64,000 nucleotides of DNA from Warburgia ugandensis. Its lineage: Eukaryota > Streptophyta > Magnoliopsida > Canellales > Canellaceae. The position numbers and the translations under genes are program-made. Positions 27,460 through 64,000 of this stretch are shown in pieces. Location: the NCBI GenBank assembly GCA_035236585.1, contig CP141132.1, positions 55,369,880 to 55,433,879 of the forward strand. Direction: 5' to 3'. The notes beneath the pieces were generated by a model. The model was not told the DNA's origin. It made no database searches and saw only the letters and a list, made by a program, of their open reading frames with translations. Numbering within the stretch: position 1 is the first letter of the stretch; each line of letters opens with the position of its first letter.

Positions 27460-27523
<64 letters not shown>

Positions 27524-28921: not shown

Positions 28922-28924
28922 AGC

Positions 28925-28936: not shown

Positions 28937-31510
28937 CCAGGTTTAGCCTTTCATAGCTAGTCTTGCATGTCCAAAATTTATATATGATTAAAACAATTAA
29001 AAAGAATTTTCTGAGTATGAGTTATGGAGATGACTAGTATAGGAAATGATAATGAATGAGAAAGAAATATATCATAAGTAAGTTGACAGAAAAACAGTTG
29101 GATTTAACAAATACTTAGGCATTGGAAGATGCTAACCCTAAGAAGTCATGAGTAGTGGAGTAAATAAGAAAACTATTAACCCTTGTAGGTATGAAAATAA
29201 ACAGATAAATAATCCTATGAGATTAATATAATTATAAGAGTGAATAATGAGAATATAAGATCATACTAATGATATCTTGAGTAAATAATTCTAACTTATA
29301 TTAGATCTTTTGTATTGATAATCCTAAAGAACTTAGCTTAATCCTAGATGAATTATATGGAACTTTGCTGAAAGTAATTGCTATCTTACAATAACAACCC
29401 GAGTATAATAGAATAGATTAGAAAATAATTATAGTAAATGAGATTTAATGTAAATAAGACAATTAGGACTTAAGCATGACCAATGTTAATGTATATAATC
29501 TACTGAATTATGGTGGTGTTATAAGGGTTTGATGAAAGTATCAATACTAAAAGATTCTAAAGTTATTTTGGATGAAAGTATTTGAATTATTAAGATAAAT
29601 TGATCAGTGATTTTGATACAATTATGAATGAACCCAGAAGGTAGAGAAGAGTAGTGTGGAAGTAATATAATAAGTTCCATAGGTTTCTTAAGATATTATA
29701 AGGGCTCATTGGAAATACGAACATTTGAGGATTTAGGTATTATTATTAGGAAGTCTAACGTTATTTTGAAGTATTTGATTCATAATATTTGTTGACCAAA
29801 AGTATAAACATGGTGTCTATTATGTGCAACAAATCAAATGGAAACATTGATCCCAGTAGACAAAAAGGAAGAATTTTACTGCAAAGAAACATAAAGATGT
29901 AAGTAATCATATTCGATGGACATTGAATAATCAGAACATGAAGATCATGAATTTAACATATATAAGACAGATAGACATGGATTAAGCTTAGACATCAAAG
30001 ATGAAGGATCTTGAATTATTTTTCCAAATTGAGAAATGAACTAGTGAAATTGAAAGGTTAAACAAGATCAAGTTAGTTATTGCTAAAGGATAGTGTATTT
30101 TAAAGAATTTCTAGAATTACCATTAAGGAATTGTGTTCAATGAGGAAATAAACTTTAAAACAAAATTGATCATTATATGATGCTTACCTAATTAAAAAGT
30201 CTTAAGAGAATGATGAGATGAAGTATTGAAATTAGAATTTCATTAGATCCATTGTTTTTACTAAGAGACATGAGTTATTCTTGTCAATAAGAGGATAAGT
30301 TGGTAATACCTTACATTACTATTGCGATTCAATGGAGTTATAATGAAGAATAAGAACCATATATATTCAAGATAAGTGACTTGTCTAATCAATCTTCACC
30401 AACTAGAGTATTATCAAGAATCAATTTGAGGTCTTGGTATCTTAGATGAGGATTAGCATAAGAAATATCTCAAGGTCAATACTTAGCAATGAATTTAAGT
30501 GTCATTACCTTAGAATAATGCCATTTAGGTTGACAAATATTTCAACTAAATTTAAAGGTCGCACGAACTAGGTATTTCAACAATTTTTTAAACTTGTTAC
30601 TATATTAGTAAACAGCACCCTAAACTATATAATACATTAATAGGAACATGATGGATACTTATACATGAGTCTTCAGTAAAGGAAGTTGACCTATTAGGCT
30701 AAGTCATTTTGGAATTTATAATCATGTTATATCCAATGATAGCTGAGGCAGAAATGAAATAAGAAAACATCTAAAACAGTGATGAAACTATAGAATTTCC
30801 TAAACCTTACTAAATATTACAATAGCGTAATGAATTATTATTTTACCATTAATTGAGATAACAATTAAGGATATAAGAAAGGTATGAGGATACATGAGCA
30901 ACAAGTTTTTAGAAATTGAAGGAACCAACCATTGCACTTATACTTATGCTACCTCCTAATAATTGAGGTTTAATGATTGTCAACAATATCTTTGATAAAT
31001 GATTGAAGAGTGTGCTGAATAGGATAAGAAAAGAGAAAACATGCTTTCGAGATGTAAAAAGAAGTAGCTTGAAATAAGCAAAGTGGTAACAAGGTAAAGC
31101 ATTCACTACAAACCTAACACTGACATCCATCATCAAAAACACTTTAGATACAGATAGATAGTGATTGAGACACAAGCTTTGGTTGAGGAATCAAGTCTCA
31201 TTTAAAAAGTGAAAGATAGCATTTGAATACATTGAAGATTGTAGTGTCGACAAATGTAAACAATAATAATAATGGTAATAATAATCAAATGTTAAAGTTG
31301 GAAATTATGATTTCTTAAGAGAGATATTAACTAAAGAGTTATAGGATTTGGAATAAAATGAAAGAACAAGTATAATCTCTTGAGTGGAATGTTCGTTGTA
31401 AAATAATTTAATCGAAATTAATGGTGAAGTAAGGAAGACATATGCATACTTGTTTGAGGAATGACATAGAAAGAAATTTTAGGACAAAAATTTCCTTAAG
31501 GGAGAAAAGA
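28937..31510 (+). mobile_element. Internal region of the Ty3/gypsy fossil
   Basis: About 2.6 kb, much shorter than an intact gag-pol region, so large parts are lost. A reverse-transcriptase-like palm stretch is faintly recognisable around 30490-30700 (MPFRLTN at about 30518). A purine-rich tract (AAGGGAGAAAAGA) precedes the second LTR. Confidence 0.65.
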
Positions 31511-34500
31511 TGTAATAACTCTAATTTTAAAAGCTTATTTTATGTAATTTTTATTGAAAATAAATAAGGTTTTGAGTTTTGAAGTTTTGATAAATGAGCT
31601 TATTTTATAAGCCAAATAAAGTGTTGAGATCTTAATAAGTGGATTGTACTTAGAAAAACAAATCCAACACACTAAGAACACTAAAAATGGAGTTCGAATA
31701 AGAAAGTTACATAATTTTTAATAGTATGAGCATTTTAGTAATTTTAAAAAGGGACCCAATTTATGTTTTTGAAAAAAAAAAATGCCTCAAATGAAGGGGC
31801 CATTTTTTATAATGACACCCCCCATGCAACAAATCTACCATGCATCGCCTCCTCCTTTCCCGCTAATGGTGCACATCATCATGGTCAACGGTGGCTTGAA
31901 AGAACACACCATCGTCACGCGTTGCTAGCAGAAATGCTGAAGTAGCCAGCAATAAACTCCTCCACGTGATCTTTCCTTCTCCCTCTCCCTTCCCCTCCAG
32001 CATTGTGTAGGGAATCTAGTCGGCGACTATGCCCCCAATCTCTCTCATCCCCTCTAGTCGGCTACCAAGAAAACCCCTTTGCCTAGCTTGACCAAAATAG
32101 CTTCTCTGGTGATCAGCATGCAACCAAGCCACCTGCGCCCTATGCCTGCCTCACCCCCTCGGTCTCTCTCTCCCCTTGCTCCCACCGGTTTCCCTTCTTT
32201 TCTTCTTCCCTCTCTGAGCGGCCTTGCTATGCACCCACTCCTCTCCCCTTGCCACCAGCATCCCACTTCTCTCCCTCTACCGGGTGATCACTAATACACC
32301 ACCACCAGACCTAGGTAAGCCTCCTTCTCATTTAGAATCTGACTGTAGTATCGGACAGTGACCCGTCGGTGAATGGATTCGACCAGCTCGAATGGGAACC
32401 ACAGTCAGGACAGCTCGGATAAAAATCTGAGTAGTCTGATGGAAACGTGGGCCTCAAAACCCTCGGATATGTTAAAATAGCAGGTATTTGACGATCCAAA
32501 TAGGATTTGGATGGGCAATTAATAGACGGTCGTGATCACACCATCCGAACTGTTCCCGTCTAAACGGTGACCAAGATGCACGCTACAAATGCACTTTAAG
32601 AACACACGCGCCTGGCGCGTGAGCCACTCATGTGAAACGGTCTCCGACAATTGTAGACATCCGTGTGTCATAGGGAATGGGACACGCTCTGGTGCATTTT
32701 GGGGACCAAGATGTATTGAGCATTTTGGAATGTGTGTTATGTTTTGGAGCATCCTGATGATGTTGTTTTAATCCCTATTTTGCCTCAATTTGATTTGAAT
32801 TGTTAAAATTCATCTCAAACTTAGATTTTCAATTTAGAAAATAATATAACTCCAAAATTTGATCCGAGACATCTATTGGATTCATTTCAATGATACGAAC
32901 ATAATTATGCAATAAAATTTAGGATTAGAATACATTCGAAATTGATCCAAACTTAAAAATCATAGAATAACTCAAATCCATCATATCAAAATTGATCAGA
33001 CCTTAGAATTTGATTAAATAAATGATTTATAAAAGTAAATAGATTGATTTAATAGTTAGATCATCCAAATAAACTGAATATTTAGATATAGACTGTTGAA
33101 TAAAATGAAAACCATGGATATGATTAATTAGAATCAGATCTAACCATCCATCATCATCTAGCCCATGATCTATCACCTAATTTCGATCCATGATTAAATC
33201 CCCAAATCCCCAAATGATCCAACTATTAATCAATCACCAAAACTCAGATCTTCGATCAATCTGACCTTTTTATGATGATCTAACCATTGGTCGGCCACCA
33301 GATTCTAGATCTGCAATAGTTCCATCCTTTCAAGATGATCTAACTATTGATCAACTACTTAACACTAGATCAACCAGCAGTTTGAGCTTCCATTTAGATT
33401 TGACCATGAATATAGCACTTGATGTAAGCCATTTGTTCTTGAATTCTTTTATCAAAGGCGATCAAACCTGATCAGGCCACATTAGCCACAATGTCATTAA
33501 TGGATTTAAGTGATCAAAGATAAGAAAGCTACTGAGTCTTATTTAAATTTAATTTTATCTTAGTTATGCCTAATAGATTATAGAAAATTTAGAAAATCAA
33601 CAAGATTAGAATGAGTTAAACCTCAATAAGAACTATTGGACTATTTATATTATTAATTGGATAAATCTAGTAGTTAGATTGTTCTAATGTCCTTAGATTC
33701 AAGGATTTGATGTTAGGATGACTTGACACTATTGATTTGACCTAACAGAATTTAATTTGACTTTTGGATCAATAGATCAAATATTTAGATATCAAATAAA
33801 CTATCTATAAGTTAGAGATTAATAGGAATTGAGGATAATTAGATTATTTAGACCCTTAAACTTTAATCAATGACCAAGATTTGATATTATAACAAAAATA
33901 AAGAGGAATACCTATGATCAGAACACGGTAATGGCAGGATCATCATGTTAATAGGGATCAGAGGCTAAATGAATCATAATTAAGAAATGGTAACTAAGAT
34001 AAATGACATTGAATGTACATGTGTTGACAGAGTTGTTGCCTGGTATGAACTAAGCCTATTGAGCATTCAGAGGATAGGGATGGCAGTGTTAGAGGTAGGC
34101 AGTTTTAACATCTATTTTCCATTGAGATTTTGAGCATGTTATCATTTACTAATATATATAATTTAAATAATTAGATAATTTGATTATTATGCTTTCAATT
34201 TGAGACTACTTGACTATCATAAAATTGATATTTTGTCATGTTGTATTATTTTATCTTTTAAAGAATGCAATATTTGCAAATGAGGCATGTGAATTATATA
34301 TATGTACCTTCATAACTAGGATGCATGCTTTTATATGGAAAATGAAAACGATGTTGCTCATTTTATTACTCGTCGTTGTATGTTTTTGAAAGAAATGATT
34401 ATATTTGAAATTACATCAATCCCATACTTTGAACTGAGTTAAAGAAATGCATAGTTTTGCATGAGATATATGTTATTTGATTTAATAACATTTGGATTGA

Positions 34501-35565
34501 GATATACGTTTGTTCAGGCTAATGAGCCTAGTGGGCATTGTGTTAAGAGGTTGTAAGAGTTTGGCTTCTCTTCCTCCAACCACCAAAGGTGGTAGGTATC
34601 CATGGCCAAAGAGGCACCTATTTTTCTTGACTATTGTGGTAGGGAAACGACCACTAGAGGTGTTCATTAAACCCTTTTCAAGACATATTCATAGTCACCA
34701 TGGAGGTTGTGAGGGCTAGTCACTAGATATGAGAGACACGGTTTTAGTGAGCTGGTCATGAGCACAGTGTTCCATGAGATTTCTTTTTTGAGATATTGTG
34801 TATGATAAGATTGATGTTGGTCTTTAGATGAGTACTCATAACAAATGGACTGATGTGTTCACTGCGGTGCATATGTGCACATGATGATGCTGTCGATTTA
34901 GGATTGCTGATGTTCACGATTTAATCAATTACTACTTTATTATTTTAAAGATCTTGTGGCATTTGATTTTATGAAGTTAGATGATGGGTCTTCACATAGT
35001 TTACAAGTTATGCATACATGTGATTTTGTGTTATATTATATATTATAATTTATGTGAGATTACATGAGGATTCAATCATTTGAAAAATAGACATTTAAAG
35101 TTGTGCATGTTTCATATTGATATTATCTAAAATGTTTTAGCATGAAACTATAAACTGAAATTTACATGTGGTTTCATCTACATTTCTTGTGTTTGATTTG
35201 ATCATTAGAACTGCATGAAAAACTACCTAAAATATTTTTTAGACTTGGATTTCAAAATGTAATATAGTAGATGTCAAACTACCTACACAAGCACAAGTTG
35301 TAGATATTTTGTAAATTGTTTACAATATTTTAGGTCTTTGAAGAATTTGACTTGAGGAAAGGAAAATCTAGGTGGATGCAAAACTGGATGAACACAATAA
35401 TGTAGTAGACTATATAAACAATGTAAGTATATGTCTTATCCTTTTTGGACATGTATATGTAATTATTATAGTTGAATTGTGAGCTGTGACTGGCTAGATC
35501 TGGGATGCATGTAATTCTATTTTAGTTTCATCATAAAAAGAAAATTTAGTTATTTTATTTTCTTG
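31511..35565 (+). repeat. Second LTR, about 4.06 kb
   Basis: Starts TGTAATAACTCT after the purine tract and matches the first LTR from 32335 on. The stretch 31760-32300 is GC- and pyrimidine-rich, as in transcribed leaders of some long plant LTRs, and gives spurious short open frames. Its 3' tail and the following primer-binding region are missing relative to the first copy. Confidence 0.7.
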
Positions 35566-36770
35566 GAAATGCATCATAAGTAAGTTGGTAGAAAAATAGT
35601 TAGATTTAACAAATACTTAGGCATTGGAAGATGCAAACCCTAAGAAGTCATGAGTAGTGGTATAAACAAGAAAACTATTAACCCTTGTAGGTATGCAAAT
35701 AAACAGATAAATAATCCTATGAGATTAATATAATTATGAGAGTGAAGAATGAGAATATAATTATGAGAGTTAAGAATGAGAATATAAGATCATACTAATG
35801 ATATCTCGGGTAAATAATTCTAACTTATATTAGATCTTTTATATTGATAATCCTAGAGAACTTTGCTTGATCCTGGATGAATTACATGGAACTTTTTCAG
35901 AAGTAATTACTATCTTACAATAATGACCTGAGTATAATATAATAAATCAAAAAATAATTATAGTAAATGGGATTTTATGTAAGTAAGACAATTAAGGCAT
36001 AAGCATGACCAATGTTAATGTATATAATCTATTGAATTATGGTAGTGTTAGAAGGGTTTGATGAAAGTATCAATACTAGAAGATTCTAAAGTTATTCTGG
36101 ATGAAAGTATTTGAATTATTAAGATAAATTGATCAAGGATTTTGATACAATTATGAATGAACCTAGAAGGAAGAGAAGCGTAGTGTGGAAGTAATATAAT
36201 AAGTTCAATGGATTTCTTAAGATATTATAAGGGCTCATTGGAGATACGAACATTTAATGATTTAGACATTGTTATTTGAGAAGTCTAATGTTATTTGGAA
36301 TTATTCGATTCATAATATCTACTGGCCAAAAGTATAGACGTGGTGTTTGTTATGTGCAACAAATCAAATGGAGACATTGATCCAAGTGGATAAAAAGGAA
36401 GAATTTTACTATAAGGAAACATAAGATGTAAGTAATCATATTCGGTGGACATTGAATAGTCAGAACAAGAAGATCTGGATTTAACATATATAAGGAAGAT
36501 AGACGTGGATTAAGCCCAGACATCAAAGATGAAGGATCTTGAATTGTTTTTTCAAATTGAGAAATGAACTAGTGAAATTGAAAGGTTAAAAAAGATCAAG
36601 TTAGTTATTGCTAATGGATAGTGTATTTTAAAGAATTTTTAGAACTACCATAAAGGGATTGTGTTCAATGAGGAAATAAACTCTAAAATTAGTTTTGATT
36701 TGGATGCTAACCTAATTCAAAAATCTAAGCAAACGATGAGTTGAACTATTGTAATTGGAATTCCAAGATT
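35566..36770 (+). mobile_element. Second, truncated internal region of the same family
   Basis: Collinear with 29068-30230 at roughly 90% similarity by eye and in the same orientation, directly following the second LTR. It ends near 36770, where similarity stops. Confidence 0.7.
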
Positions 36771-44825: not shown

Positions 44826-46454
44826 AACGACCTGATCATGGAATTGTAAAATATTAAGGTTGTTGCACTAGCGAGCCTTGCCATTATCGAAATGGCTTCC
44901 TGAGGTTTCTATGTTTTCTTTCTTTCTTTTTTTCACTTTCAATTAAAGAAATAGCCCTGCATTTGAAGTCCCATAACTCCTTCATACGGACTCTATTTTC
45001 GGCATTCCTTACCTCGTTGTATTCGATTTTCTGAGTATTTTCTAATGGTTTTAGTTTTAATTCCAAATTATTATGCAATTAAAAGATATACTTCTTGAAA
45101 GCTCATGACCTGATCATGGAATAGTAAAATATTAAGGTTGTTACACCAGTAAGCCTCGCCACTATCAAAACTGCCCCATGAGGTTTCTATGTTTTTTTCC
45201 TCACTTTCAATTAATGAAATAGCCCTGCCTGTGAAGTCCCATAGCTCCTTCATATGAACTCTATTTTCTGCGTTCCTTGGCTCGGTGGATTCCATTTTCT
45301 GTGTATTATCTAATGGTTCCAGTTTTAATACTAAATTATTATGCAATTAAAAGATATACTCCTTCAAAGCTCATGACCTGATCATGGAATAGTAAAGTAT
45401 TAAGGTTGTCACACCAGTAAGCCTCGCCACTATCAAAATTGCCCCATGAGGTTTCTATGGGTTTTTTTTCACTGTTAATTAATGAAACAGCCCTGGCTAT
45501 GAAGTCCCATAACTCCTTCATACGAACTCTATTTTCAGCTTTCCTTGGCTAGTTGGATTCCATTTTCTAAGTATTATCTTATGGTTTAAGTGTAAATTCC
45601 AAATTATTACGTAATTAAAAGATATACTTCTTGAAAGCTCATGACCTGATCATGGAATAGTAAAATATTAAGGTTGTTACACCAGTGAGGCCTGCCATTA
45701 TCAAAATGGCTTCTTGAGGGTTCTATGTTTTTTTTTTTTTTCACTTTCAATTAATGAAATAGCCCTGCCTTTGAAGTCCCATAACTCCTTCATACGGACT
45801 CTATTTTCAGCATTCCTTGCCTTGTTGTATTCTATTTTCTAAGTATTAGCTAATGGTTTTAGTTTTAATTTCAAATTATTATGCAATTAAAAGATATACT
45901 TCTTGAAATCTCATGACCTGATCATGGAATAGTAAAATATTAAGGTTGTTACACCAGTAAGCCCTGCCATTATCAAAATGGCTCCTTGAGGTTTCCATGT
46001 TTTTTTTTTTTCACTCTCAATTAATGAAATAGCCTTGCATTTGAAGTCCCATAACTCCTTCATATGCGCTCTATTTTCTACGTCCCTTGGCTCGGTGGAT
46101 TCCATTTTTTGTGTATTATCTAATGGTTCCAGTTTTAATACTAAATTATGATGCAATGAAAAGATATACTTATTGGAAGCTCATGACCTGATCATGGAAT
46201 AGTAAAATATTAACGTTGTTACACCAGTAAGCCTCGCCAATATCAAAATTTCCTCATGAGGTTTGTATGGTTTTTTTTTTTCACTTTTAATTAATGAAAT
46301 AGCCCTGACTATGAAGTCCCATAACTCCTTCATACGGACTCTATTTTCAGCATTCCTTGGCTCGTTGTATTCTATTTTCTGAGTATTATCTAATGGTTCT
46401 AGTTTTAATTCCAAATTATTATGCAATTAAAAGATATACTTCTTGAAAGCTCTT

Positions 46455-48852
46455 GACTTGATCATGGAATAGTAAAATATTAAGGCTGTTGCACCCGCGA
46501 GCCTTGCCATTATTGAAATGGCTCCTAGAGGTTTCTATGTTTTTTTTTTTTCACTTTCAATTAATGGAATAGCCCTGCTTTTGAAGTCCCATAACTCCTT
46601 CATTTGAACTCTATTTTCTGCGTTCCTTGGTTCGGTGGATTCCATTTTCTATATATTATCTAATGGTTCCAGTTTTAATACTAAATTATGATGCAATTAA
46701 AAGATATATATCTTGGATGCTCATGACCTGATCATGGAATAGTAAAATATTAAGGTTGTTACACTAATAAGCCTCACCAATATCAAAATTTCCCCATGAG
46801 GTTTGCATGGTTTTCTTTACAATTTTAATTAATGAAACAGAGTCCCATAACTCCTACATATGGACTCTATTTTCAGCATTCCTTGGCTCGTTGTAGTCTA
46901 TTTTCTGAGTATTATCTAATGGTTCTAGTTTTAATTCCAAATTATTACGCAATTAAAAGATATACTTCTTGAAAGCTCATGACCTAATCATGGAATAGTA
47001 AAGTATTAAGGTTGTTACACCCGCGAGCCATGCCATTATCGAAATGGCTCCTTGAGGTTTCTATGTTTTCTTTTTTTCACTATTAATTAATGAAACAACC
47101 CTGCCTTTGAAGTCCTATAACTCCTTCATATGAACTCTATTTTCTGCGTTCCTTGGCACGGTGGATTCCATTTTTTGAGTTTTATATAATGGTTTCAGTT
47201 TTAATTCCAGATTATTATACAATTAAAAGATATACTTCTTGAAAGCTCTTGACCTGATCATGGAATAGTAAAATATTAAGGCTGTTGCACCCGCGAGCCT
47301 TGCCATTATTGAAATGGCTCCTAGAGGTTTCTATGTATTTTTTTTTTCACTTTCAATTAATGGAATAGCCCTGCTTTTGAAGTCCCATAACTCCTTCATT
47401 TGAACTCTATTTTCTGTGTTCCTTGGTTTGGTGGATTCCATTTTCTATATATTATCTAATGGTTCTAGTTTTAATACTAAATTATGATGCAATTAAAAGA
47501 TATATATCTTGGAAGCTCATGACCTGATCATGGAATAGTAAAATATTAAGGTTGTTACACCAATAAGCCTCACCAATATCAAAATTTCCCCATGAGATTT
47601 GCATTGTTTTTCTTACACTTTTAATTAATGAAACAGAGTCCCATAACTTCTACATATGGACTCTATTTTCAGCATTCCTTGGCTCGTTGTAGTCTATTTT
47701 CTGAGTATTATCTAATGGTTCTAGTTTTAATTCCAAATTATTACGCAATTAAAAGATATACTTCTTGAAAGCTCATGACCTAATCATGGAATAGTAAAGT
47801 ATTAAGGTTGTTACACCCGCGAGCCATGCCATTATCGAAATGGCTCCTTGAGGTTTCTATGTTTTCTTTTTTTCACTATTAATTAATGAAACAACCCTGC
47901 CTTTGAAGTCCTATAACTCCTTCATATGAACTCTATTTTCTGCGTTCCTTGGCACGGTGGATTCCATTTTTTGAGTTTTATATAATGGTTTCAGTTTTAA
48001 TTCCAGATTATCATACAATTAAAAGATATACTTCTTGAAAGCTCTTGACCTGATCATGGAATAGTAAAATATTAAGGCTGTTGCACCCGCGAGCCTTGCC
48101 ATTATTGAAATGGCTCCTAGAGGTTTATATGTTTTTTTTTTTTTTCACTTTCAATTAATGGAATAGCCCTGCTTTTGAAGTCCCATAACTCCTTCATTTG
48201 AACTCTATTTTCTGTGTTCCTTGGTTTGGTGGATTCCATTTTCTATATATTATCTAATGGTTCTAGTTTTAATACTAAATTATGATGCAATTAAAAGATA
48301 TATATCTTGGAAGCTCATGACCTGATCATGGAATAGTAAAATATTAAGGTTGTTACACCAATAAGCCTCACCAATATCAAAATTTCCCCATGAGATTTGC
48401 ATGGTTTTTCTTACACTTTTAATTAATGAAACAGAGTCCCATAACTCCTACATATGGACTCTATTTTCAGCATTCCTTGGCTCGTTGTAGTCTATTTTCT
48501 GAGTATTATCTAATGGTTCTAGTTTTAATTCCAAATTATTACGCAATTAAAAGATATACTTCTTGAAAGCTCATGACCTAATCATGGAATAGTAAAGTAT
48601 TAAGGTTGTTACACCCGCGAGCCATGCCATTATCGAAATGGCTCCTTGCGGTTTCTATGTTTTTTTTTCTTTTTCTTTTCACTTTTAATTACTGAAATAG
48701 TCCTGCCGTTGAAGTCCCATAACACCTTCATTAGGACTCTTATTTTTGCATTCCTTGGCTCGGTGGATTCCATTTTCTGTGTATTATCTAATGGTTCCAA
48801 TTTTTATTCCAAATTATTATGCAATTAAAAGATATACTTCTTGAAAGCTCAT
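46455..48852. repeat. Higher-order repeat, 3-monomer unit of 796 bp
   Basis: Monomer anchors 46455, 47251 and 48047 are each 796 bp apart, as are 46725/47521 (then 48319) and 46981/47777 (then 48575). The variant text, including the 256-bp monomer that lacks about 12 bases, recurs in step. Two full trimers are followed by a third that ends in different monomers. Confidence 0.88.
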
Positions 48853-49121
48853 GACCTAATCATGGAATAGTAAAGTATTAAGGTTGTTACACCCGCGAGC
48901 CATGCCATTATCGAAATGGCTCCTTGAGGTTTCTATGTTTTTTTTTTTCACTTTTAATTAATGAAACAACCCTGCCTTTGATGTCCTATAACTCCTTCAT
49001 ATGAACTCTATTTTTTGCGTTCCTTGGCACGGTGGATTCCATTTTTTGAGTTTTATATAATGGTTTCAGTTTTAATTCCAGATTATTATACAATTAAAAG
49101 ATATACTTCTTGAAAGCTCTT

Positions 49122-51531
49122 GACCTGATCATGGAATAGTAAAATATTAAGGCTGTTGCACCCGCGAGCCTTGCCATTATTGACATGGCTCCTAGAGGTT
49201 TCTATGTTTTTTTTTTTTTTTTCACTTTCAATTAATGGAATAGCCCTGCTTTTGATGTCCCATAACTCCTTCATTTGAACTCTATTTTCTGCGTTGCTTG
49301 GTTCGGTGGATTCCATTTTCTATATATTATCTAATGGTTCCAGTTTTAATACTAAATTATTATGCAATTAAAAGATATACTTCTTGGAAGCTCATGACCT
49401 GATCATGGAATAGTAAAATATTAAGGTTGTTACACCAGTAAGCCTTGCCAATATCAAAATTGCCCCATGAGGTTTCTCTGGTTTTTTTTTCACTTTTAAT
49501 TAATGAAACAGCCTTGACTATGAAGTCCCATAACTCCTTCATACGAACACTATTTTCAGCGTTCCTTGCCTCGTTGGAGTCCATTTTCTGAGTATTTTCT
49601 AGTGGGTTAGTTTTAATTCCAAATTATTATTCAATTAAAATGTATACTTCCTGATTGCTCATGACCTGATCATGGAATAGGAAAATATTAAGGTTGTTAC
49701 TCCAGCGAGCCCTGCCATTATCGAAATGGCTCCTTGAGGTTTCCAGTTTTTTTCACTTTTAATTAATGAAATAGCCCTGCCTGTGAAGTCCCATAGTTCC
49801 TTCATACGAACCCTATTTTCTGCGTTCCTTGGCTCGGGTTATTCCATTTTCTGTGTATTATCTAAAGGTTCCAGTTTTAATACTAAATTATTATGCAATT
49901 AAAAGATATACTTCTTCAAAGCTCATGACCTGATCATGGAAGAGTAAAATATTAAGGTTGTCACACCAGTAAGCCTCGCCAATATCAAAATTGCACCATG
50001 AGGTTTCTATGGATTTTTGTTCACTTTTAATTAATGAAACAGCCCTGACTATGAAGTCCCATAACTCCGTCATACGAACTCTATTTTCAGCTTTCCTTGG
50101 CTAGTTGGATTCCATTTTTTGAGTATTATCTTATGGTTTCAGTTTTAATTCCAAATTATTACGCAATTAAAAGTTATATTTCTTGAAAGCTCATGACCTG
50201 ATCATGGAATAGTAAAATATTAAGGTTGTTACACCAGCGAGCCCTGCCATTATCGAAATGGCTCCTTCAGGTTTCTATTTATTTTTTACTTTTAATTAAT
50301 GAAATAAGCCAACCTTTGAAGTCCCATAGCTCCTTCATATGAACTCTATTTTTTGTGTCCCTTGGCTCGGTGGATTCCATTTTCTGTGTATTATTTAATG
50401 GTTCCAGTTTTAATACTAAATTATTATGCAATTAAAAGATATACTTCTTCAAAGCTCATGACCTGATCATGGAATAGTAAAATATTAAGGTTGTCACACC
50501 AGTAAGCCTCGCCAATATCAAAATTTCCCCTTGTGGTTTGTATGGTTTTTTTTTCACTTTTAATTAAAGAAACAACCCTGACTATGAAGTCCCATAACAC
50601 CTTCATACGGACTCTCTTTTCAGCATTCCTTGGCTCGTTGTATTCTATTTTCTGATTATTATCTAATGGTTCTAGTTTTAATTCAAAATTATTATGCAAT
50701 TAAAAGATATACTTCTTGAAAGTTCATGACCTGATCATGGAATAGTAAAATATTAAGGTGGTTACACTAGCGAGCCCTGCCATTATCGAAATGGCTCCTT
50801 GAGGTTTCTATGTTTTTTTTCTCACTTTAAATTAATGAAATAGCCCTACCTATGAAGTCCCATAGCTCCTTCATATGAACTCTATTTTTTTTGTCCCTTG
50901 GCTCGGTGGATTCCATTTTCTATGTATTATTTAATGGTTCCAGTTTTAATACTAAATTATTACTCAATTAAAAGATATACTTCCTCAAGGCTCATGACCT
51001 GATCATGGAATAGTAAAATATTAAGGTTGTCACACCAGTATGCCTCGCCAATATCAAAATTGCCCCATGAGATTTCTATGTTTGTTTTTTCACTGTTAAT
51101 TAATGATATAGCCCTAACTATGAAGTCCCATAACTCCTTCATACGAACTCTATTTTCAGTATTCCTTGGCTCGTTGGATTCCACTTTCTGAGTATTATCT
51201 TATGGTTTCAATTTTAACTCCAATTTATTACGCAATTAAAAGATATACTTCTTGAAAGCTCATGACAGGATCATGGAATAGTAAAATATTAAGGTTGTTA
51301 CACCAGTGAGCCCTGCCATTATCGAAATGGCTCCTAGAGGTTTCTATGTTTTTTTCTTCATTTTTAGTTAATGAAATAGCCCTAACTATGAAGTCCCATA
51401 ACTCCTTCATACGAACTCTATTTTCAGTATTCCTTGGCTTGTTGGATTCCACTTTCTGAGTATTATCTTATGGTTTCAGTTTTAACTCCAATTTATTACG
51501 CAATTAAAAGATATACTTCTTGAAAGCTCAT
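49122..51531. repeat. Alternating A/B monomer dimers
   Basis: Nine successive monomers (49122, 49396, 49663, 49927, 50195, 50460, 50728, 50996, 51264) alternate strictly between type A (GCCATTATCGAAATGGCTCC) and type B (GCCAATATCAAAATTGCCCC), giving a dimer period of about 535 bp. Confidence 0.85.
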
Positions 51532-51784
51532 GACCTGATCATGGAATAGTAAAATATTAAGGTTGTTACACCAGCAAGTCCTGCCATTATCAAAATGGCA
51601 CCTTGTGGTTTCTATGTTTTTTTTTTTTTTTTTTCTTACTTTCAATTAATGAAATAGCCTTACCTTTGAAGTCCCATAAGTCCTTCATATGAGCTCTATT
51701 AACTGCGTTCCTTGGCTTGGTGGATTCCATTTTCTGTGTATTATCTAATGGTTCTAGTTTTAATACTAAATTATGATGCAATTA

Positions 51785-54700
51785 AAAGAAATATTTCTTG
51801 GAAGCTCATGACCTGATCGTGGAATAGTAAAATATTAAGGTTGTTACACCAGTAAGCCTCACCAATATCAAAATTTCCCCATGAGGTTTGTATGGTTTTT
51901 TTTTACACTTTTAATTAATGAAACAGAGTCCCATAACTCCGACATATGGACTCTATTTTCAGCATTCCTTGGCTCATTGTATTCTATTTTCTGAGTATTA
52001 TCTAATGGTTCTAGTTTTAATTCCAAATTATTATGCAATTAAAAGATATACTTCTTGAATGCTCATGACCTAATCATGGAATAGTAAAGTATTAAGGTTG
52101 TTACACCGTGAGCCATGCCATTATCGAAATGGCTCCTTGAGGTTTCTATGTATTTTTTTACACTTTTAATTAATGAAACAACCTTGCCTTTGATGTCCCA
52201 TAACTCCTTCATATGAACTCTATTTTCTGCATTTCTTGGCTCGGTGGATTCCATTTTTTGAGTATTTTATAATGGTTTTAGTTTTAATTGCAAATTATTA
52301 TGCAATTAAAATATATACTTCTTGAAAGCTCTTGACCTGATCATGGAATAATAAAATATTAAGGTTGTTGCACCAGCGAGCCCTGCCTTTATTGAAATGG
52401 CTCCTTGAGGTTTCTATGTTTTTTTTTTTTACTTTCAATTAATGTAATAGCCCTGCCTTTGAAGTCCCACAACTCCTTCATACGAACTCTATTTTCTGCT
52501 TTCCTTGGCTCGGTGGATTCCATTGTTTATGTATTATCTAATGGTTCCAGTTTTAATACTAAATTATTAAGCAATTAAAAGATATACTTCTTGGAAGCTC
52601 ATGACCTGATCATGGTATAGTAAAATATTAAGGTTGTTATACCAGTAAGGCTTGACAATATCAAAATTGCTCCTTGAGGTTTCTATGGTTTTTTTTTTTT
52701 CACTTTTAATTAATGAAATAGCCCTGACTATGAAGTCCCATAACCCCTTCATACGAACTCTATTTTCTACGTTCCTTGGCTTGGTGGATTTCATTTTTTG
52801 TGTATTATCAAATGGTTCTAGTTTTAATTCCAAATTATTATGCAATTAAAAGAAATACTTCTTGAAAGCTCATCACCTGATCATGGAATAGTAAAATATT
52901 AGGGTTGTTACACTAGTAAGCCTTGCTAATATCAAAATTTCCACATGAGGTTTGTATGGTTTTTTTTTTTTTTTACTTTTAATTAATGAAACAGCCCTGA
53001 CTATGAAGTCCCATAACTCCTTCAAACGAACTCTATTTTCAGTGTTCCTTGGCTCGTTGGATTCCATTTTCTGTGTATTATCTAATGGTTCCAGCTTTAA
53101 TTCCAAATTATCATGCAATTAAAAGATATAATTCTTGAAAAATCATGACCTGATCATGGAATAGGAAAATTTTAAGGTTGTTACACTAGTGAGCCTTGCC
53201 ATTATCGAAATGGCTCCTTGAGGTTTCTATGTTTTTTTTCTCACTTTCAATAACTAAAATAGCCTTGCCTTTGCAGTCCCATAACTCCTTCATATGAGCT
53301 CTATTTTTTGCGTTCCTTGGCTCGGTGGATTCCATTTTCTATGTATTATATAATGGTTCTTGTTTTTATTCCCAATTATTATGCAATTAAAAGATATACT
53401 TCTTGAACGCTCATGACCTGATCATGGAATAGTAAAGTATTAAGGTTGTAACACCGGTGAGTAATGCCATTATCGAAATGGCTCCTTGGGGTTTCTATGT
53501 TTTTTTTTTTTTTTTTTTTTTCACTTTCAATTGCTAAAATAGCCCTGCCTTTGAAGTCCCATAACTCCTTCATATGAACTCTATTTTTTGCGTTCCTTGC
53601 CTCGGTGGTTTCCATTTTCTGCGTACTATCGAATGGTTCTATTTTTTATTCCAAATTATTATGCAATTAAAAGATATACTTCTTGAAAGCTCACGACCTG
53701 ATCATGGAATAATAAAGTATTAAGGTTGTTACACCCACAAGCCATGCCGTTATCGAAATGGCTCCTTGAGGTTTCTATGTTTTTTTTTTTTTCACTTTTA
53801 ATTACTGAAATAGCCCTGTCGTCGAAGTCCCATAACTCCTTCATTAGAACTCTATTTTTTGCGTTCCTTGGCTCGGTGGATTCCATTTTATGTGTATTAT
53901 CTAATGGTTCCAGTTTTTATTCCAAATTATTATGCAATTAAAAGAAATATTTCTTGGAAGCTCATGACCTGATCGTGGAATAGTAAAATATTAAGGTTGT
54001 TACACCAGTAAGCCTCACCAATATCAAAATTTCCCCATGAGGTTTGTATGGTTTTTTTTTACACTTTTAATTAATGAAACAGAGTCCCATAACTCCGACA
54101 TATGGACTCTATTTTCAGCATTCCTTGGCTCATTGTATTCTATTTTCTGAGTATTATCTAATGGTTCTAGTTTTAATTCCAAATTATTATGCAATTAAAA
54201 GATATACTTCTTGAATGCTCATGACCTAATCATGGAATAGTAAAGTATTAAGGTTGTTACACCCGCGTGCCATGCCATTATCGAAATGGCTCCTTGAGGT
54301 TTCTATGTATTTTTTTTCACTTTTAATTAATGAAACAACCTTGCCTTTGAAGTCCCATAACTCCTTCATATGAACTCTATTTTCTGCATTTCTTGGCTCG
54401 GTGGATTCCATTTTTTGAGTATTTTATAATGGTTTTAGTTTTAATTGCAAATTATTATGCAATTAAAATATATACTTCTTGAAAGCTCTTGACCTGATCA
54501 TGGAATAATAAAATATTAAGGTTGTTGCACCAGCGAGCCCTGCCTTTATTGAAATGGCTCCTTGAGGTTTCTATGTTTTTTTTTTTACTTTCAATTAATG
54601 TAATAGCCCTGCCTTTGAAGTCCCACAACTCCATTTGAACTCTATTTTCTGCTTTCCTTGGCTCGGTGGATTCCATTTTCTATGTATTATCTAATGGTTC

Positions 54701-56097
54701 CAGTTTTAATACTAAATTATTAAGCAATTAAAAGATATACTTCTTGGAAGCTCATGACCTGATCATGGTATAGTAAAATATTAAGGTTGTTACACCAGTA
54801 AGGCTTGACAATATCAAAATTGCCCCACGAGGTTTCTATGGTTTTTTTTTTTTCACTTTTAATTAATGAAATAGCCCTGACTATGAAGTCCCATAACCCC
54901 TTCATACGAACTCTATTTTCTACGTTCCTTGGCTTGGTGGATTTCATTTTTTGTGTATTATCAAATGGTTCTAGTTTTAATTCCAAATTATTATGCAATT
55001 AAAAGAAATACTTCTTGAAAGCTCATCACCTGATCATGGAATAGTAAAATATTAGGGTTGTTACACTAGTAAGCCTTGCCAATATCAAAATTTCCACATG
55101 AGGTTTGTATGGTTTTTTTTTTTTTACTTTTAATTAATGAAACAGCCCTGACTATGAAGTCCCATAACTCCTTCAAACGAACTCTATTTTCAGTGTTCCT
55201 TGGCTCGTTGGATTCCATTTTCTGAGTATTATCTAATGGTTCCAGCTTTAATTCCAAATTATCATGCAATTAAAAGATATAATTCTTGAAAAATCATGAC
55301 CTGATCATGGAATAGGAAAATTTTAAGGTTGTTACACTAGTGAGCCTTGCCATTATCGAAATGGCTCCTTGAGGTTTCTATGTTTTTTTTCTCACTTTCA
55401 ATAACTAAAATAGCCTTGCCTTTGCAGTCCCATAACTCCTTCATATGAGCTCTATTTTTTGCGTTCCTTGGCTCGGTGGATTCCATTTTCTATGTATTAT
55501 ATAATGGTTCTTGTTTTTATTCCCAATTATTATGCAATTAAAAGATATACTTCTTGAACGCTCATGACCTGATCATGGAATAGTAAAGTATTAAGGTTGT
55601 AACACCGGCGAGTAATGCCATTATCGAAATGGCTCCTTGGGGTTTCTATGTTTTTTTTTTTTTTTTTTTCACTTTCAATTGCTAAAATAGCCCTGCCTTT
55701 GAAGTCCCATAACTCCTTCATATGAACTCTATTTTTTGCGTTCCTTGCCTCGGTGGTTTCCATTTTCTGCGTACTATCGAATGGTTCTATTTTTTATTCC
55801 AAATTATTATGCAATTAAAAGATATACTTCTTGAAAGCTCATGACCTGATCATGGAATAATAAAGTATTAAGGTTGTTACACCCACAAGCCATGCCGTTA
55901 TCGAAATGGCTCCTTGAGGTTTCTATGTTTTTTTTTTTTTCACTTTTAATTACTGAAATAGCCCTGTCATCGAAGTCCCATAACTCCTTCATTAGAACTC
56001 TATTTTTTGCGTTCCTTGGCTCGGTGGATTCCATTTTATGTGTATTATCTAATGGTTCCAGTTTTTATTCCAAATTATTATGCAATTAAAAGATATA
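51785..56097. repeat. Higher-order repeat: an 8-monomer block of about 2.15 kb present twice in tandem
   Basis: AAAGAAATATTTCTTGGAAG starts at about 51785 and again at 53941, and eight variant monomers follow in the same order with offsets of 2148-2156 bp. The copies are nearly identical apart from T-tract lengths and scattered bases. Confidence 0.9.
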
Positions 56098-56739
56098 CTT
56101 CTTGAAAGCTCATGACCTCATCATGGAATAGTAAAGTATTAAGGTTGTTACACCTGTGAGCCATGCCATTATCGAAATGGCTCCTTGAGGTTTCTATGTT
56201 TTTTTTTCACTTTTAATTAATGAAACAACCCTGCCTTTGAAGTCCCATAACTCCTTCATATGAACTCTATTTTATGCGTTCCTTGGCTCGGTGGATTCCA
56301 TTTTTTGAGTTTTATATAATGGTTTCAGTTTTAATTCCAGATTATTATGCAATGAAAACATATACTTCTTGGAAGCTCATGACCTGATCATGGAATAGTA
56401 AAATATTAAGGTTGTTGCACCCACGAGCCCTGCCTTTATTGAAATGGCTCCTTGAGGTTTCTATGTTTTTTTTTTCACTTTCAATTAATGGAATAGCCCT
56501 GCCTTTGAAGTCCCATAACTCCTTCATTTGAACTCTATTTTCTGCGTTCCTTGGTTCGGTGGATTTCATTTTCTATGTATTATCAAATGGTTCCAGTTTT
56601 AATACTAAATTATTGTGCAATTAAAAGATATACTTCTTGGAAGCTCATGACCTGATCATGGAATTGTAAAATATTAAGGTTGTTACACTAGTAAGCCTTG
56701 CTAATATCAAAATTGCACCATGAGGTTTCTATGTTTTTT

Positions 56740-59700
56740 TTTTCACTTTTAATTAATGAAACAGCCCTGACTATGAAGTCCCATAACTCCTTCATACGAA
56801 CTTTATTTTCAGTGTTCCTTGGCTCGTTGGATTCCATTTTTTGAGTATTATCTTGTGGTCCCATTTTTAATTCCAAATTATTATGCAATTAAAAGATATA
56901 CTTCTTGAAAGCTCATGGCCTGATCATGGAATAGTAAAATGTTAAGGTTGTTACATTGGCGAGCCCTGCCATTATTGAAATGGCTCCTTGAGGTTTCTAT
57001 GTTTTTTTTCTCACTTTCAATTAATGAAATAGCCCTGCCTGTGAAGTCCCATAGTTCCTTCATATGAACCCTATTTTCCACGTTCCTTGGCTCGGGTTAT
57101 TCCATTTTCTGTGTATTATGTAAAGGATCCTGTTTTAATACTAAATTATTATGCAATTGAAAGATATACTTCTTCAAAGCTCATGACCTGATCATGGAAT
57201 AGTAAAATATTAAGGTTGTCACACCAATAAGCCTCGCCAATATCAAAATTGCAACATGAGGTTTCTGTGGATTTTTGTTCACTGTTAATTAACGAAACAT
57301 CCATGACTATGAAGTCCCATAACTCCTTCATATGAACTCTATTTTCAGCGTTCCTTGGCTAGTTGGATTCCATTTTTTGAGTATTATCTTATGGTTTCAG
57401 TTTTATTTCCAAATTATTACGCAATTAAAAGTTATACTTCTTGAAAGCTCATGACCTGATCATGGAATAGTAAAATATTAAGGTTGTTACACCAGCAAGC
57501 CCTGCCATTATCGAAATGGCTCCTTGAGGTTTCTACTTTTTTTTTTTTTTACTTTTAATTAATGAAATAGCCCTGCCTTTGATGTCCCATAACTTCTTTG
57601 TATGAACTCAATTTTTTGCGTTCCTTGCCTCGGTGGACTCCATTTTCTATTTATTATCTAATAGTTCTAGTTTTAATTCCAAATTATTATGCAATTAAAG
57701 GATATACTTCTTGAATGCTCATGACCTCATCATGGAATAGAAAAGTATTAAGGTTATTACACCCACGAGCCATGCCATTATCGAAATGGCTCCTTGAGGT
57801 TTCAATGCTTTTTTTTTTTTTCTTTTTTTTTTTTTCACTTTTTATTAATGAAATAGCCCTGATTTTGAAGTCCCATAACTCCTTCATACGAACTCCATTT
57901 TTTGCGTTCCTTGGCTCGGTGGATTCCATTTTCTGTGTATTACCAAATGGTTCAAGTTTCTATTCAAAATTATTATGCAATTAAAAGATATACTTCTCGA
58001 AAGCTCATGACCTGATCATGGAATAGAAAAGTATTAATGTTGTTACGCCCGCGAGCCATGCCATTATCGAAATGGCTCCATGAGGTTTCTACGCTTTTTT
58101 TTTTTTTTTTTTCACTTTTAATTAATGATACGACCCTGATTTTGAAGTCCCATAACTCCTTCATACGAACTCTATTTTTTGCGTTCCTTCGCTCTGCGGA
58201 TTCCATTTTCCGTGTATTATCGAATGGTTCTAGTTTTTATTCCAAATTATTACACAATTAAAAGATATACTTCTCGAAGGCTCATGACCTGATCATGGAA
58301 TAGTAAAGTATTAAGGTTGTTACACCCGCGAGCCATGCCATTATCAAAATGGTTCCTTGAGGTTTCTATGTTTTTTTTTTCACATTTAATTACTGAAATA
58401 GCCCTGCCTTTGAAGTCCCATAACTCCTTCATATGAACTCTATTTTTAGCGTTCCTTGGCTCGGTGGATTCCTTTTTCTGTGTATTATCTAATGGTTCTA
58501 GTTTTTATTCGAAATTATAATGCAATTAAAAGATATACTTCTTGAAAGCTCATGACCTAATCATGGAATAGTAAAGTATTAAGGTTGTTACACCCGCAAG
58601 CCATGCCATTATCGGAATGGCTCCTTGAGGTTTCTATGTTTTTTTTTTTTTTTCACTTTTAATTAATGAAACAGCCCTGACTATGAAGTCCCATAACTCC
58701 TTCATACGAACTTTATTTTCAGTGTTCCTTGGCTCGTTGGATTCCATTTTTTGAGTATTATCTTGTGGTCCCATTTTTAAATCCAAATTATTATGCAATT
58801 AAAAGATATACTTCTTGAAAGCTCATGGCCTGATCATGGACTAGTAAAATGTTAAGGTTGTTACATTGGCGAGCCCTGCCATTATTGAAATGGCTCCTTG
58901 AGGTTTCTATGTTTTTTTTCTCACTTTCAATTAATGAAATAGCCCTGCCTGTGAAGTCCCATAGTTCCTTCATATGAACCCTATTTTCCACGTTCCTTGG
59001 CTCGGGTTATTCCATTTTCTGTGTATTATGTAAAGGATCCTGTTTTAATACTAAATTATTATGCAATTAAAAGATATACTTCTTCAAAGCTCATGACCTG
59101 ATCATGGAATAGTAAAATATTAAGGTTGTCACACCAATAAGCCTCGCCAATATCAAAATTGCAACATGAGGTTTCTGTGGATTTTTGTTCACTATTAATT
59201 AACGAAACATCCATGACTATGAAGTCCCATAACTCCTTCATATGAACTCTATTTTCAGCGTTCCTTGGCTAGTTGGATTCCATTTTTTGAGTATTATCTT
59301 ATGGTTTCAGTTTTATTTCCAAATTATTACGCAATTAAAAGTTATACTTCTTGAAAGCTCATGACCTGATCATGGAATAGTAAAATATTAAGGTTGTTAC
59401 ACCAGCAAGCCCTGCCATTATCGAAATGGCTCCTTGAGGTTTCTACTTTTTTTTTTTTTACTTTTAATTAATGAAATAGCCCTGCCTTTGATGTCCCATA
59501 ACTTCTTCGTATGAACTCAATTTTTTGCGTTCCTTGCCTCGGTGGAGTCCATTTTCTATTTATTATCTAATGGTTCTAGTTTTAATTCCAAATTATTATG
59601 CAATTAAAGGATATACTTCTTGAATGCTCATGACCTCATCATGGAATAGAAAAGTATTAAGGTTATTACACCCACGAGCCATGCCATTATCGAAATGGCT

Positions 59701-60555
59701 CCTTGAGGTTTCAATGCTTTTTTTTTTTTTTTTTTTTTTTTCACTTTTTATTAATGAAATAGCCCTGATTTTGAAGTCCCATAACTCCTTCATACGAACT
59801 CCATTTTTTGCGTTCCTTGGCTCGGTGGATTCCATTTTCTGTGTATTACCAAATGGTTCAAGTTTCTATTCAAAATTATTATGCAATTAAAAGATATACT
59901 TCTCGAAAGCTCATGACCTGATCATGGAATAGAAAAGTATTAATGTTGTTACGCCCGCGAGCCATGCCATTATCGAAATGGCTCCATGAGGTTTCTACGC
60001 TTTTTTTTTTTTTTTTTTTTTTTTCACTTTTAATTAATGATACGACCTTGATTTTGAAGTCCCATAACTCCATACGAACTCTATTTTTTGCGTTCCTTGG
60101 CTCTGCGGATTCCATTTTCCGTGTATTATCGAATGGTTCTAGTTTTTATTCCAAATTATTACACAATTAAAAGATATACTTCTCGAAGGCTCATGACCTG
60201 ATCATGGAATAGTAAAGTATTAAGGTTGTTACACCCGCGAGCCATGCCATTATCAAAATGGCTCCTTGAGGTTTCTATGTTTTTTTTTTCACATTTAATT
60301 ACTGAAATAGCCCTGCCTTTGAAGTCCCATAACTCCTTCATATGAACTCTATTTTTTGCGTTCCTTGGCTCGGTGGATTCCATTTTCTGTGTATTATCTA
60401 ATGGTTCTAGTTTTTATTCGAAATTATAATGCAATTAAAAGATATACTTCTTGAAAGGTCATGACCTAATCATGGAATAGTAAAGTATTAAGGTTGTTAC
60501 ACCCGCAAGCCATGCCATTATCGGAATGGCTCCTTGAGGTTTCTATGCTTTTTTT
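56740..60555. repeat. Higher-order repeat: a 7-monomer block of about 1.91 kb present twice in tandem
   Basis: Seven variant monomers in 56740-58650 recur at 58650-60555 with offsets of 1906-1910 bp. Both visible breakpoints fall in or beside a T tract: upstream of it the first copy has a type B monomer and the junction has a type A monomer. Confidence 0.9.
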
Positions 60556-63500
60556 TTTTCACTTTTAATTAAGGAAACAACCGTACCTTTGAAGTCCCAT
60601 AACTCTTTCATATGAACTCTATTTTCTGCGTTCCTTGGCTTGGTGGATTCCATTTTTTTAGCATTATATAATGGTTTCAGTTTTAATTCCAAATTATTAT
60701 TCAAATAAAGATATACTTCTTGGAAGCTCATGACCTGATCATGGAATAGTAAAATATTAAGGTTGTTACACCAGTATGCATCGCCAATATCAAAATTGTC
60801 CCATGAGGTTTCTATGTTTTTTTTTTTTCACTTTTAATTAATGAAACAGGCCTGATTATGAAGTCCCATAACTCCTTCTGAAGAACTCTATTTTCAGCGT
60901 TCCTTAGCACGTTGGATTGCATTTTGTGACTATTATCTAATGGTTCTAGCTTTAATTCCAAATTATTATGCAATTAAAAGATATACTTCTTGAAAGCTCA
61001 TGACCTGATCATGGAATAGTAAAATATTAAGGTTGTTACACTGGCGAGCCCTGCCATTATTGAAATGGCTCCTTGAGATTGCTATGTTTTTTTTCTCACT
61101 TTCAATTAATGAAATAGCCCTGCCTGTGATGTCCTATAGCTCCTTCATATGAACTCTATTTTCTGCGTTCCTTGGCTCAGTCGATTCCATTTTTTGTGTA
61201 TTATCTATTGGTTGCAGTTTTGATAGTAAATTATTATGCAATTAAAAGATATACTTCTTGAAACCTCATGACCTGATCATGGAATAGTAAAATATAAAGG
61301 TTGTTACACTAGCGAGCCCTGCCATTATTGAAATGGCTCCTTGAGGTTTCTATTTTTTTTTCACTTTTAATTAATGAAATAGCCCTGCCTGTGAAGTCCC
61401 ATAACTCCTTCATATGAACTCTATTTTCTGCGTTCCTTGGCTAGGTGGATTCCATTTTTTGTGTATTATCTATTGGTTACAGTTTTGATACTAAATTATT
61501 ATGCAATTAAAAGATATACTTCTTAAAAGATCATGACCTGATCATGGAATAGTAAAATATTAAGGTTGTTACACTAGTAAGCCTTGCCAATATCAAAATT
61601 GCCCCATGAGGTTTCTATGGTTTTTTTTTCACTTTTAATTAATGAAACAACCCTGACTATGAAGTCCCATAACTCCTTCATACGAACACTATTTTTTGCG
61701 TTCCTTGGTTCGTTGGATTCCATTTTTTGAGTATCATCTAATGGTTCCATGTTTAAACCCAAATTATTACGCAATTAAAAGATATACTTCTTGAAAGCTC
61801 ATGACCTAATCATGGAATAGTAAAGTATTAAGGTTGCCACACCCGCGAGCGATGCCATTATCAAAATGGCTGCTTGAGGTTTCTATGTTTTTCTTTTCAC
61901 TTTTAGTTACTGAAATAGCCGTCCCTTTGAAGTCCCATAACTCCTTCATATGAACTCTATTTTCTGCGTTCCTTGGCTAGGTGGATTCCATTTTCTTTGT
62001 ATTATCTAATGGTTCCAATTTTAATTCCAAATTATTATGCAATTAAAAGATATACTTCTTCAAAGATCGTGACCTGATCATGGAATAGACAAGTATTAAG
62101 TTGTTAGACCCGCGAGCCATGCCATTATCGAAATGGATCCTCGAGGTTTCTATGTTTTTTTTTTTTTTTTTTTTTCTTTTCACTTTTAATTACTGAAATA
62201 GCCCTGCCGTTGAAGTCCCATAACTCCTTCATACGTACTCTATTTTTTGTGTTCATTGGCTTGGTGGGTTCCATTTTCTGTGTATTATCTAATGGTTCCA
62301 GTGTTAATTTCAAATTATTATGCAATTAAAGGATATACTTCTTGAAAGCTCATGACCTAATCATGGAATAGTAAAATATTAAGGTTGTTACCCCTGCGGG
62401 CCATGCCATTATCGAAATGGCCGCTTGAGGTTTCTATGTTTTTTTTTTTTTTTTTTTTTTCACTTTTAATTTGTGAAACAGCCTTGATTTTGAAGTCCCA
62501 TAACTCCTTCATATGAACTCTATTTTCTGCGTACCTTAGCTCCTTGTATTCCATTTTCTGGGTATTATCTAATGGTTACAGTTTTAATTCCAATTACTAT
62601 GCAAGTAAAAGATATACTTCTTGAAAGCTCATGACCTGATCATGGAATAGTAGAATATTAAGGCTGTTACACCATGGAGGCCTGCCATTATTGAAATGTC
62701 CCCTTGAGGTTTCTATGTTTTTTTTCACTTCCAATTAATGAAATCGCCCTGCCTTTGATGTCCCATATTTGCTTCATACGAACTCTATTTTTAGCATTCC
62801 TTGCCTCGTTGTATTCTATTTTCTGAGTATTATCTAATGGTTTTAGTTTTAATTCCAAATTATTTTGCAATTAAAAGATATACTTCTTGGAAGCTCATGA
62901 CCGGATCATGGAATTGTAAAATATTAAGGTTGTTACACCAGTAAGCCTTGCCAATATCAAAATTTCCCCATGAGGTTTCTATGGTTTTTTTTTCACCATT
63001 AATTAATGAAACAACCCTGATTATGAAGTCCCATAACTCCTTCATACGAACTCTATTTCCAGCGTTCCTTGGATCGTTGTATTTTATTTTCTCAGTATTA
63101 TCTAATGGTTCCAATTTTAATTCCAAATTATTATGCAATTAAAAGATATACTTCTTGAAAGCTCATGACCAGATCATGGAATAGAAAAATATTAAGGTTG
63201 CTACACAAGCGAGCCCTGCCATTATCGAAATGGTTCCTTGAGGTTTCTATGTTTTTTTTCTCACTTTCAATTAATGAAATAGCCCTGCCTATGAAGTCCC
63301 ATAGGTCCTTCATATGAACTCTATTTTCTACGTTCCTTGGCTCAGTGGATTCCATTTTCTAATATTATCTAATGGTTCCAGTTTTAATACCAAATTATTA
63401 TGCAAATAAAAGATATACTTCTTCAAAGCTCATGACCTGATCATGGAATCGTAAAGTATTAAGGTTGTCACACTAGTAATCCTCGCTAATATCAAAATTG

Positions 63501-64000
63501 CCCCATGAGGTTTCTATGGATTTTCGTTCATTGTTAATTAATGAAACATCCCTGACTATGAAGTCCCATAACTCCTTCAAACGACCTATATTTTCAGCGT
63601 TCCTTGGCTAGTTGGATTCCATTTTTTGAGTATTATCTTATGGTTTGAGTTTTAATTCCAAATTATTACACAATTAAAATATATACTTCTTGAAAGCTCA
63701 AGACCAGATCATGGAATAGTGAAATATTAACGTTGTTACACCATCGAGCCCTGCCATTATCGAAATGGCTCCTTGAGGTTTCTATTTTTTTTTACTTTTA
63801 ATTAATGAAATAGCCCTGGCTTTGAAGTCCCATAACTCCTTCATATGAACTCTATTTTTTGCGTTCCTTGGCTCGGTGGATTCTATTTTCTATATATTAT
63901 CTAATGGTTCCAGTTTTAATTCCAAATTATTATGCAATTAAAAGATATACTTCAGGAAAGCTCATGACCAGATCGTGGAATAGAAAAGTATTAAGGTTGT

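Follow-up and report, generated by a model that had tools for sequence, protein, structure and literature searches.

A 268-bp satellite array on contig C7 of Warburgia ugandensis with a probable partial origin from the U3 end of Ty3/gypsy LTRs

Introduction

CRM1TR and CRM4TR of maize are tandem repeats formed from LTR parts of Ty3/gypsy elements and are found at few loci (PMC3648361). The two loci of CRM1TR are both on maize chromosome 9, separated by about 1.4 Mb, and its arrays are cut by later LTR-retrotransposons (PMC3648361). In wild potato, the Sobo repeat is similar to retrotransposon LTRs and lies at the pericentromere of one chromosome, and potato centromeres carry repeats that are chromosome-specific and related to retrotransposons (PMC3648361, PMC9659126). 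The FabTR satellites of Lathyrus sativus originated from parts of Ty3/gypsy elements, and these elements are still dispersed in the genome (PMC7004042). In rodents, the RPCS satellite has a 348-bp monomer that is similar to the U3 region of an LTR (PMC3648361).

The stretch of DNA analyzed here, referred to as the window, comprises 64,000 nucleotides of contig C7 (C7:55369880-55433879). The genome totals 1.12 Gb and is assembled in 14 contigs, each 54.9-106.1 Mb long. The right-hand end of the window is a satellite array that is probably LTR-derived and locally amplified, of the CRM1TR/Sobo kind, and now most likely a local passenger repeat. The derivation from an LTR would be partial, as it covers 182 of the 268 bp of the unit and leaves 76 bp for which no source was detected. 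The sample read beyond the window amounts to about 259 kb and consists of 20 stretches of C7, 30 pieces of 3 kb at sites on C3, and a few small pieces.

The array in the window and its continuation on C7

TRF reports a single array with a period of 268, 71.1 copies, 83% matches, and 2% indels (Table 1). An anchor search of the window finds 72 monomer starts and hence 71 complete monomers, which are spaced 256-286 bp apart (mean 269.6 bp), so the original prediction of a real array of about 71 monomers over more than 19 kb is borne out by both counts. Pairwise identity among the window monomers averages 86.4% and ranges from 77.5 to 100%. The window part of the array is even in composition along its length and uninterrupted, since the monomer spacings are too tight to admit an insertion. 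The earlier statement that no transposon lies inside is therefore correct for the window part but not for the array in its entirety: about 15.8 kb past the window edge, a 17.9-kb LTR-retrotransposon complex splits it. The array continues past the window up to C7:55449700, where it has reached a length of 35.0 kb, resumes after the insertion, and ends at C7:55481578, which gives about 49 kb of satellite for the two sides of the insertion together (in about 5.2 kb of the second part, C7:55473800-55478999, it is marked by pattern sites). The observed/expected ratio of CpG is 0.52 in the array, 0.34 in the left flank, and 0.50 in the insertion and gives no special signal. The window has no match to an RNA gene in Rfam at gathering thresholds, and a known RNA gene was therefore rejected as the identity of the repeat.

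Table 1. Positions of the array, its recent duplications, and a related single copy in the window
Feature	Position	Strand	Evidence
Array of the 268-bp satellite (the window includes 71 complete monomers)	44829-64000	+	TRF, anchor search, neighbouring stretches
Degenerate single copy of the LTR block	31639-31819	-	nhmmer with the monomer profile, E 6.6e-6
Recent duplication at a distance of three monomers (46451-47772 = 47247-48570), five overlapping pairs, 97-99.6% identical	46451-48570	+	Monomer identities, permutation test
Recent tandem duplication of an eight-monomer block (51806-53961 = 53962-56109), 98-100% identical	51806-56109	+	Monomer identities, permutation test
Recent duplication at a distance of seven monomers (56913-58549 = 58823-60458), six monomers, 98.5-100% identical	56913-60458	+	Monomer identities, permutation test

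The inserted complex measures 17,864 bp (C7:55449701-55467564), begins with TG, ends with CA, and is flanked by a 5-bp duplication, ATACT. Self-comparison and the junctions are consistent with two elements, an outer one with an LTR of 2.7 kb and a second one, with LTRs of 2.5 kb, that interrupts the 3' LTR of the outer one. Identity between LTR copies is 84.5% and 93.4% for the two pieces of the outer LTR and 90.6% for the nested element, and this divergence indicates that the insertions are not recent and that the array is older still. A Ty3/gypsy chromovirus is expected to encode gag, protease, RT, RNase H, and an integrase with chromodomain. Open stretches of the nested element, which lies on the minus strand, exceed the Pfam cut-offs for gag, RVP_2 aspartic protease, RT, RNase H, and SH3_Tf2-1; its Chromo match (20.4 versus a cut-off of 25.1 bits) and its integrase zinc-binding match fall below them. 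Genes were not found in the outer element of this insertion. The sequence GTTGGTATCAGAGCC behind the outer 5' LTR is presumably the primer site for the initiator-methionine tRNA.

Monomer types and order

A layered higher-order structure had been proposed for the array. Its local part stands, in the form of three recent block duplications (Table 1) and two monomer types, but an array-wide higher-order repeat on C7 was rejected because no lag is prominent when all monomers of the array are compared. In the window, up to 8 consecutive monomer pairs are at least 97% identical, compared with at most 2 in 500 permutations of monomer order. The homogenization that the original prediction described as ongoing is likewise visible only locally, in the block duplications; the mean identity of the window monomers argues against it across the array.

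K-means clustering of 295 monomers (155 from C7 and 140 from C3) separates two types that occur on both contigs. Type 1 is marked by GTAAGCC and CAAAATTGCCCC and type 2 by GCGAGCC and CGAAATGGCTCC, and the clusters are soft (silhouette 0.12-0.20). In a C7 stretch of 146 monomers, type-1 monomers are neighbours 3 times versus 12.2 expected, and none of 5000 shuffles gives a value as low. The window alone has 3 such neighbours versus 5.9 expected, which is not significant (P 0.08; 6 of the 71 monomers are unassigned).

On C3, a strict 535-bp dimer dominates at 25.54-25.55 Mb, where mean identity is 96.6% at lag 2 versus 78.1% at lag 1. Pattern sites on C3 are spaced about 956 bp apart at 34.11 Mb and about 1.85 kb apart at 25.63 Mb, and those at 24.755-24.760 Mb come in pairs of about 0.83 and 0.91 kb, which suggests further higher-order units. 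The spacing of about 956 bp is not a multiple of 268, and the cluster at C3:34.08-34.23 Mb is therefore probably made of a higher-order unit that contains a truncated monomer. Among the 295 monomers, mean identity is 85.9% within C7, 83.0% within C3, and 81.6% between the two. The closest C3-C7 pair is 90.7% identical, so exchange between the contigs is old among the monomers read.

Distribution of the satellite in the genome

The satellite also forms clusters elsewhere in the genome, on C3, which supports that side of the original prediction. An exact 34-mer has 109 sites; the 100 listed are all on C3 or C7, and of the other nine, eight were read on C7 and one is unplaced. Two patterns could be listed in full, an exact 28-mer with 51 sites (39 on C3 and 12 on C7) and a second pattern with 40 sites (38 on C7 and 2 on C3). 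A further exact 28-mer has 126 sites, and the 100 listed are all on C3. When up to three mismatches are allowed, a 40-mer of type 1 has 169 sites, and the 100 listed are all on C3 or C7; the 52 sites at up to two mismatches include all 30 such sites known from reading. The best 40 of 1943 candidates from a DNA query are also all on C3 or C7, as are the 100 listed sites (not a full ranking) of the 667 found with another 40-mer at up to three mismatches. The search patterns were built from C7 and C3 monomers, and diverged copies on other contigs could escape them.

The C3 sites fall into clusters at 24.69-24.89 Mb on the plus strand and at 25.51-25.65, 34.08-34.23, and 53.94-54.05 Mb on the minus strand, with one site at 34.76 Mb, so that the extremes (24.7 and 54.1 Mb) are 29 Mb apart. 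The first two clusters, which are less than 1 Mb apart and face in opposite directions, may be the trace of an inversion. Two of the C3 stretches that lie 7.6 kb apart (L008 and L009) are 98.5% identical over 2.5 kb and hold about two satellite monomers each; they represent a larger duplicated unit that carries pieces of the satellite. The 40-mer with 667 sites is carried by 118 of the 146 monomers read on C7 and by 70 of the 140 read on C3. Scaling of its sites by the share of monomers that carry it gives, very roughly, 1,200 monomers or 0.3 Mb of satellite in the genome, provided that the C3 stretches read are typical (the cluster at 34 Mb, located by pattern sites, may differ).

Relation of the monomer to the U3 end of LTRs

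A blastn search with the monomer consensus detects single copies of positions 55-236 in non-satellite DNA. Positions 55-235 match positions 93-274 of the LTR of the element inserted in the array with about 71% identity over 182-183 bp (E ~1e-19). About 182 of the 268 bp of the monomer are related, in antisense, to the U3 end of dispersed Ty3/gypsy LTRs, with low identities of about 69-71%. The original prediction had set a match to a named satellite or LTR against its own reading; such a match was found in part, as two thirds of the monomer match the U3 part of dispersed LTRs. A profile of the 295 monomers has 11 matches (E 2.4e-23 to 6.6e-6) in 225,012 bases of non-satellite DNA, which comprise the left part of the window, the insertion, and stretches of C7 and are not a random sample of the genome. 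Four of the matches lie inside the insertion and one inside the window (Table 1), and the reversed control of the same bases has no match at E up to 1.

The block is antisense in all three LTRs whose bounds could be set, at 93-274 of 2722 bp, 114-228 of 2502 bp, and 198-352 of 3058 bp (for the second and third LTR, 1 and about 8 bases ahead of the TG, respectively, are counted in), and its place near the 5' end of each assigns it to U3. The elements that carry it may, as a guess from LTR length, be Tekay-like. At up to three mismatches, the genome contains 3926 sites of the LTR form of the block and none of the reversed pattern; the LTR form differs from the satellite consensus at about seven places and should not count satellite. 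An intermediate form has 1197 sites, some of which, at three mismatches, may be satellite, and the 51 one-mismatch sites listed for it are spread over all 14 contigs.

The profile matches form groups that are alike over the block and differ in their flanks, and related matches have common flanks too. LTR groups with differing neighbouring sequence (L032, L033, L034, L043, L046, and L047) have in common about 190 bp near the U3 end, and this block is thus better conserved than its surroundings. The ends of similarity recur in several matches, running from monomer positions 42-55 to 212-241. When the remaining 76 of the 268 bp are compared with four sequences, their scores do not exceed those of shuffles, so an LTR parent does not account for the whole monomer in that comparison, although a parent that holds the 76 bp may exist. 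No LTR that holds the full monomer or the 76-bp remainder was seen in the 225 kb examined, and a single parent LTR family was not found. Constraint on the LTR-derived part was not seen, with a mean column conservation of 0.88 versus 0.90 for the rest of the monomer.

Other features of the left flank

Domains were sought in 5 of the 31 open stretches of at least 80 amino acids in the left flank. Open stretches at window positions 15344-16166, about 29 kb from the array, match 2OG-Fe(II) oxygenase and ShK domains and resemble a prolyl 4-hydroxylase gene or its remains. Positions 4585-6831 hold four head-to-tail copies of a 560-bp unit that show no differences and that TRF, run with a longest period of 500, missed. 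Further copies of this unit are absent from the other non-satellite DNA that was read, and the four copies reflect either an amplification in the very recent past or an artefact of the assembly. A long direct duplication at 25535-30242 and 32360-36765, which is 80.6% and 87.5% identical in two pieces, perhaps represents the LTRs of an old element.

Discussion

A role at the centromere is unlikely for this satellite. Some points do favor a satellite that functions at centromeres or pericentromeres, perhaps those of two chromosomes only: tandem satellites in this class of unit length are found at centromeres, the long C3 arrays have regular higher-order units, and potato provides a precedent of centromere repeats that are chromosome-specific and retrotransposon-derived (PMC3648361). 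However, a general centromeric satellite is expected on most or all chromosomes and is disfavored by the finding of sites on C3 or C7 only (2 of 14 contigs) among the matches listed. The C3 sites are scattered over 24.7-54.1 Mb, and the C7 array is about 49 kb long, averages 85.9% identity among its monomers, and holds an old insertion. The idea that strong homogenization keeps this satellite uniform at a centromere, pericentromere, or knob is not supported, given the 86.4% identity in the window, the old 18-kb insertion, the listed sites on two contigs, and the C3 clusters 29 Mb apart. More doubtful still is the idea that the U3 block is prone to tandem amplification by its own sequence or chromatin and that the C3 clusters, each with its own higher-order spacing and together spread over 29 Mb, mark centromere sites, former or shifting, that LTR fragments had seeded.

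The homology of block and monomer would be equal if an LTR had captured a fragment of an old satellite, which then dispersed along with the elements, an alternative that is discussed for the grass pea satellites (PMC7004042) and that would fit a block common to LTR groups with differing flanks. This direction is nevertheless improbable, slightly more so than the centromere reading: the block occurs as single copies in several LTR groups, with one orientation and a similar place in the three bounded LTRs; its sites number in the thousands against listed satellite sites on two contigs; and no LTR with the full monomer or its 76-bp remainder was seen in the 225 kb examined. A third source for both, such as a small mobile element inserted into LTRs, would explain the recurring ends of similarity and the differing flanks between groups. 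It is very improbable given the identical orientation and similar place in three of three bounded LTRs and the common flanks beyond the block in related LTRs.

The derivation of the satellite from LTRs, the preferred reading, may have proceeded as follows. An LTR fragment and 76 bp of other DNA would have been joined into a tandem unit, and the two monomer types would have arisen before the spread to C3 and C7. The arrays would then have grown and shrunk by unequal exchange of misaligned monomers or by a similar duplication of blocks, which could account for the block duplications as well as for the regular higher-order units on C3. Some C3 arrays would have amplified such regular units, and the order on C7 would have become scrambled. 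Nothing points to a function of the satellite, and it probably has none, because the LTR-derived part shows no extra conservation over the remainder of the monomer, the C7 array contains an 18-kb insertion, and the listed sites are on two contigs.

Comparison with known systems

Satellites made from LTR parts are already known, and the array described here seems to add a further case. Literature searches with unit lengths and with literal strings of the monomer and the block returned, in listings and the beginnings of abstracts, nothing that was recognised as this satellite; the only literal monomer string found there was the 13-letter GACCTGATCATGG, under medical and cell-biology titles, and block strings had no hits. 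The genome displays several stages side by side, from a single block at thousands of LTR sites to arrays with regular higher-order units on C3 and, on C7, an array of scrambled order that has fresh block duplications and an old retrotransposon insertion. It is therefore a usable test case for the start and spread of a satellite and leaves the general picture unchanged.

RPCS belongs to an animal genome and involves another element, and it is likened to the present satellite by description and not by sequence. The FabTR satellites come from short arrays that are already tandem within the 3' UTR of Ogre elements, whereas the source here is probably the U3 of an LTR and no tandem array was seen inside an element. 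Sobo and the potato repeats have an established centromere location and units of 1 to 5.4 kb, compared with 268 bp here. CRM1TR and CRM4TR have monomers of about 700-1370 nt that comprise LTR plus UTR and are 95-98% similar to their parent (PMC3648361). The satellite here differs from them in its 268-bp unit, in its relation to U3 only, at about 71% identity with 76 bp unexplained, and in having no proven centromeric retrotransposon as a parent. CRM1TR, with two loci on one chromosome and arrays interrupted by later retrotransposons, is the nearest known system.
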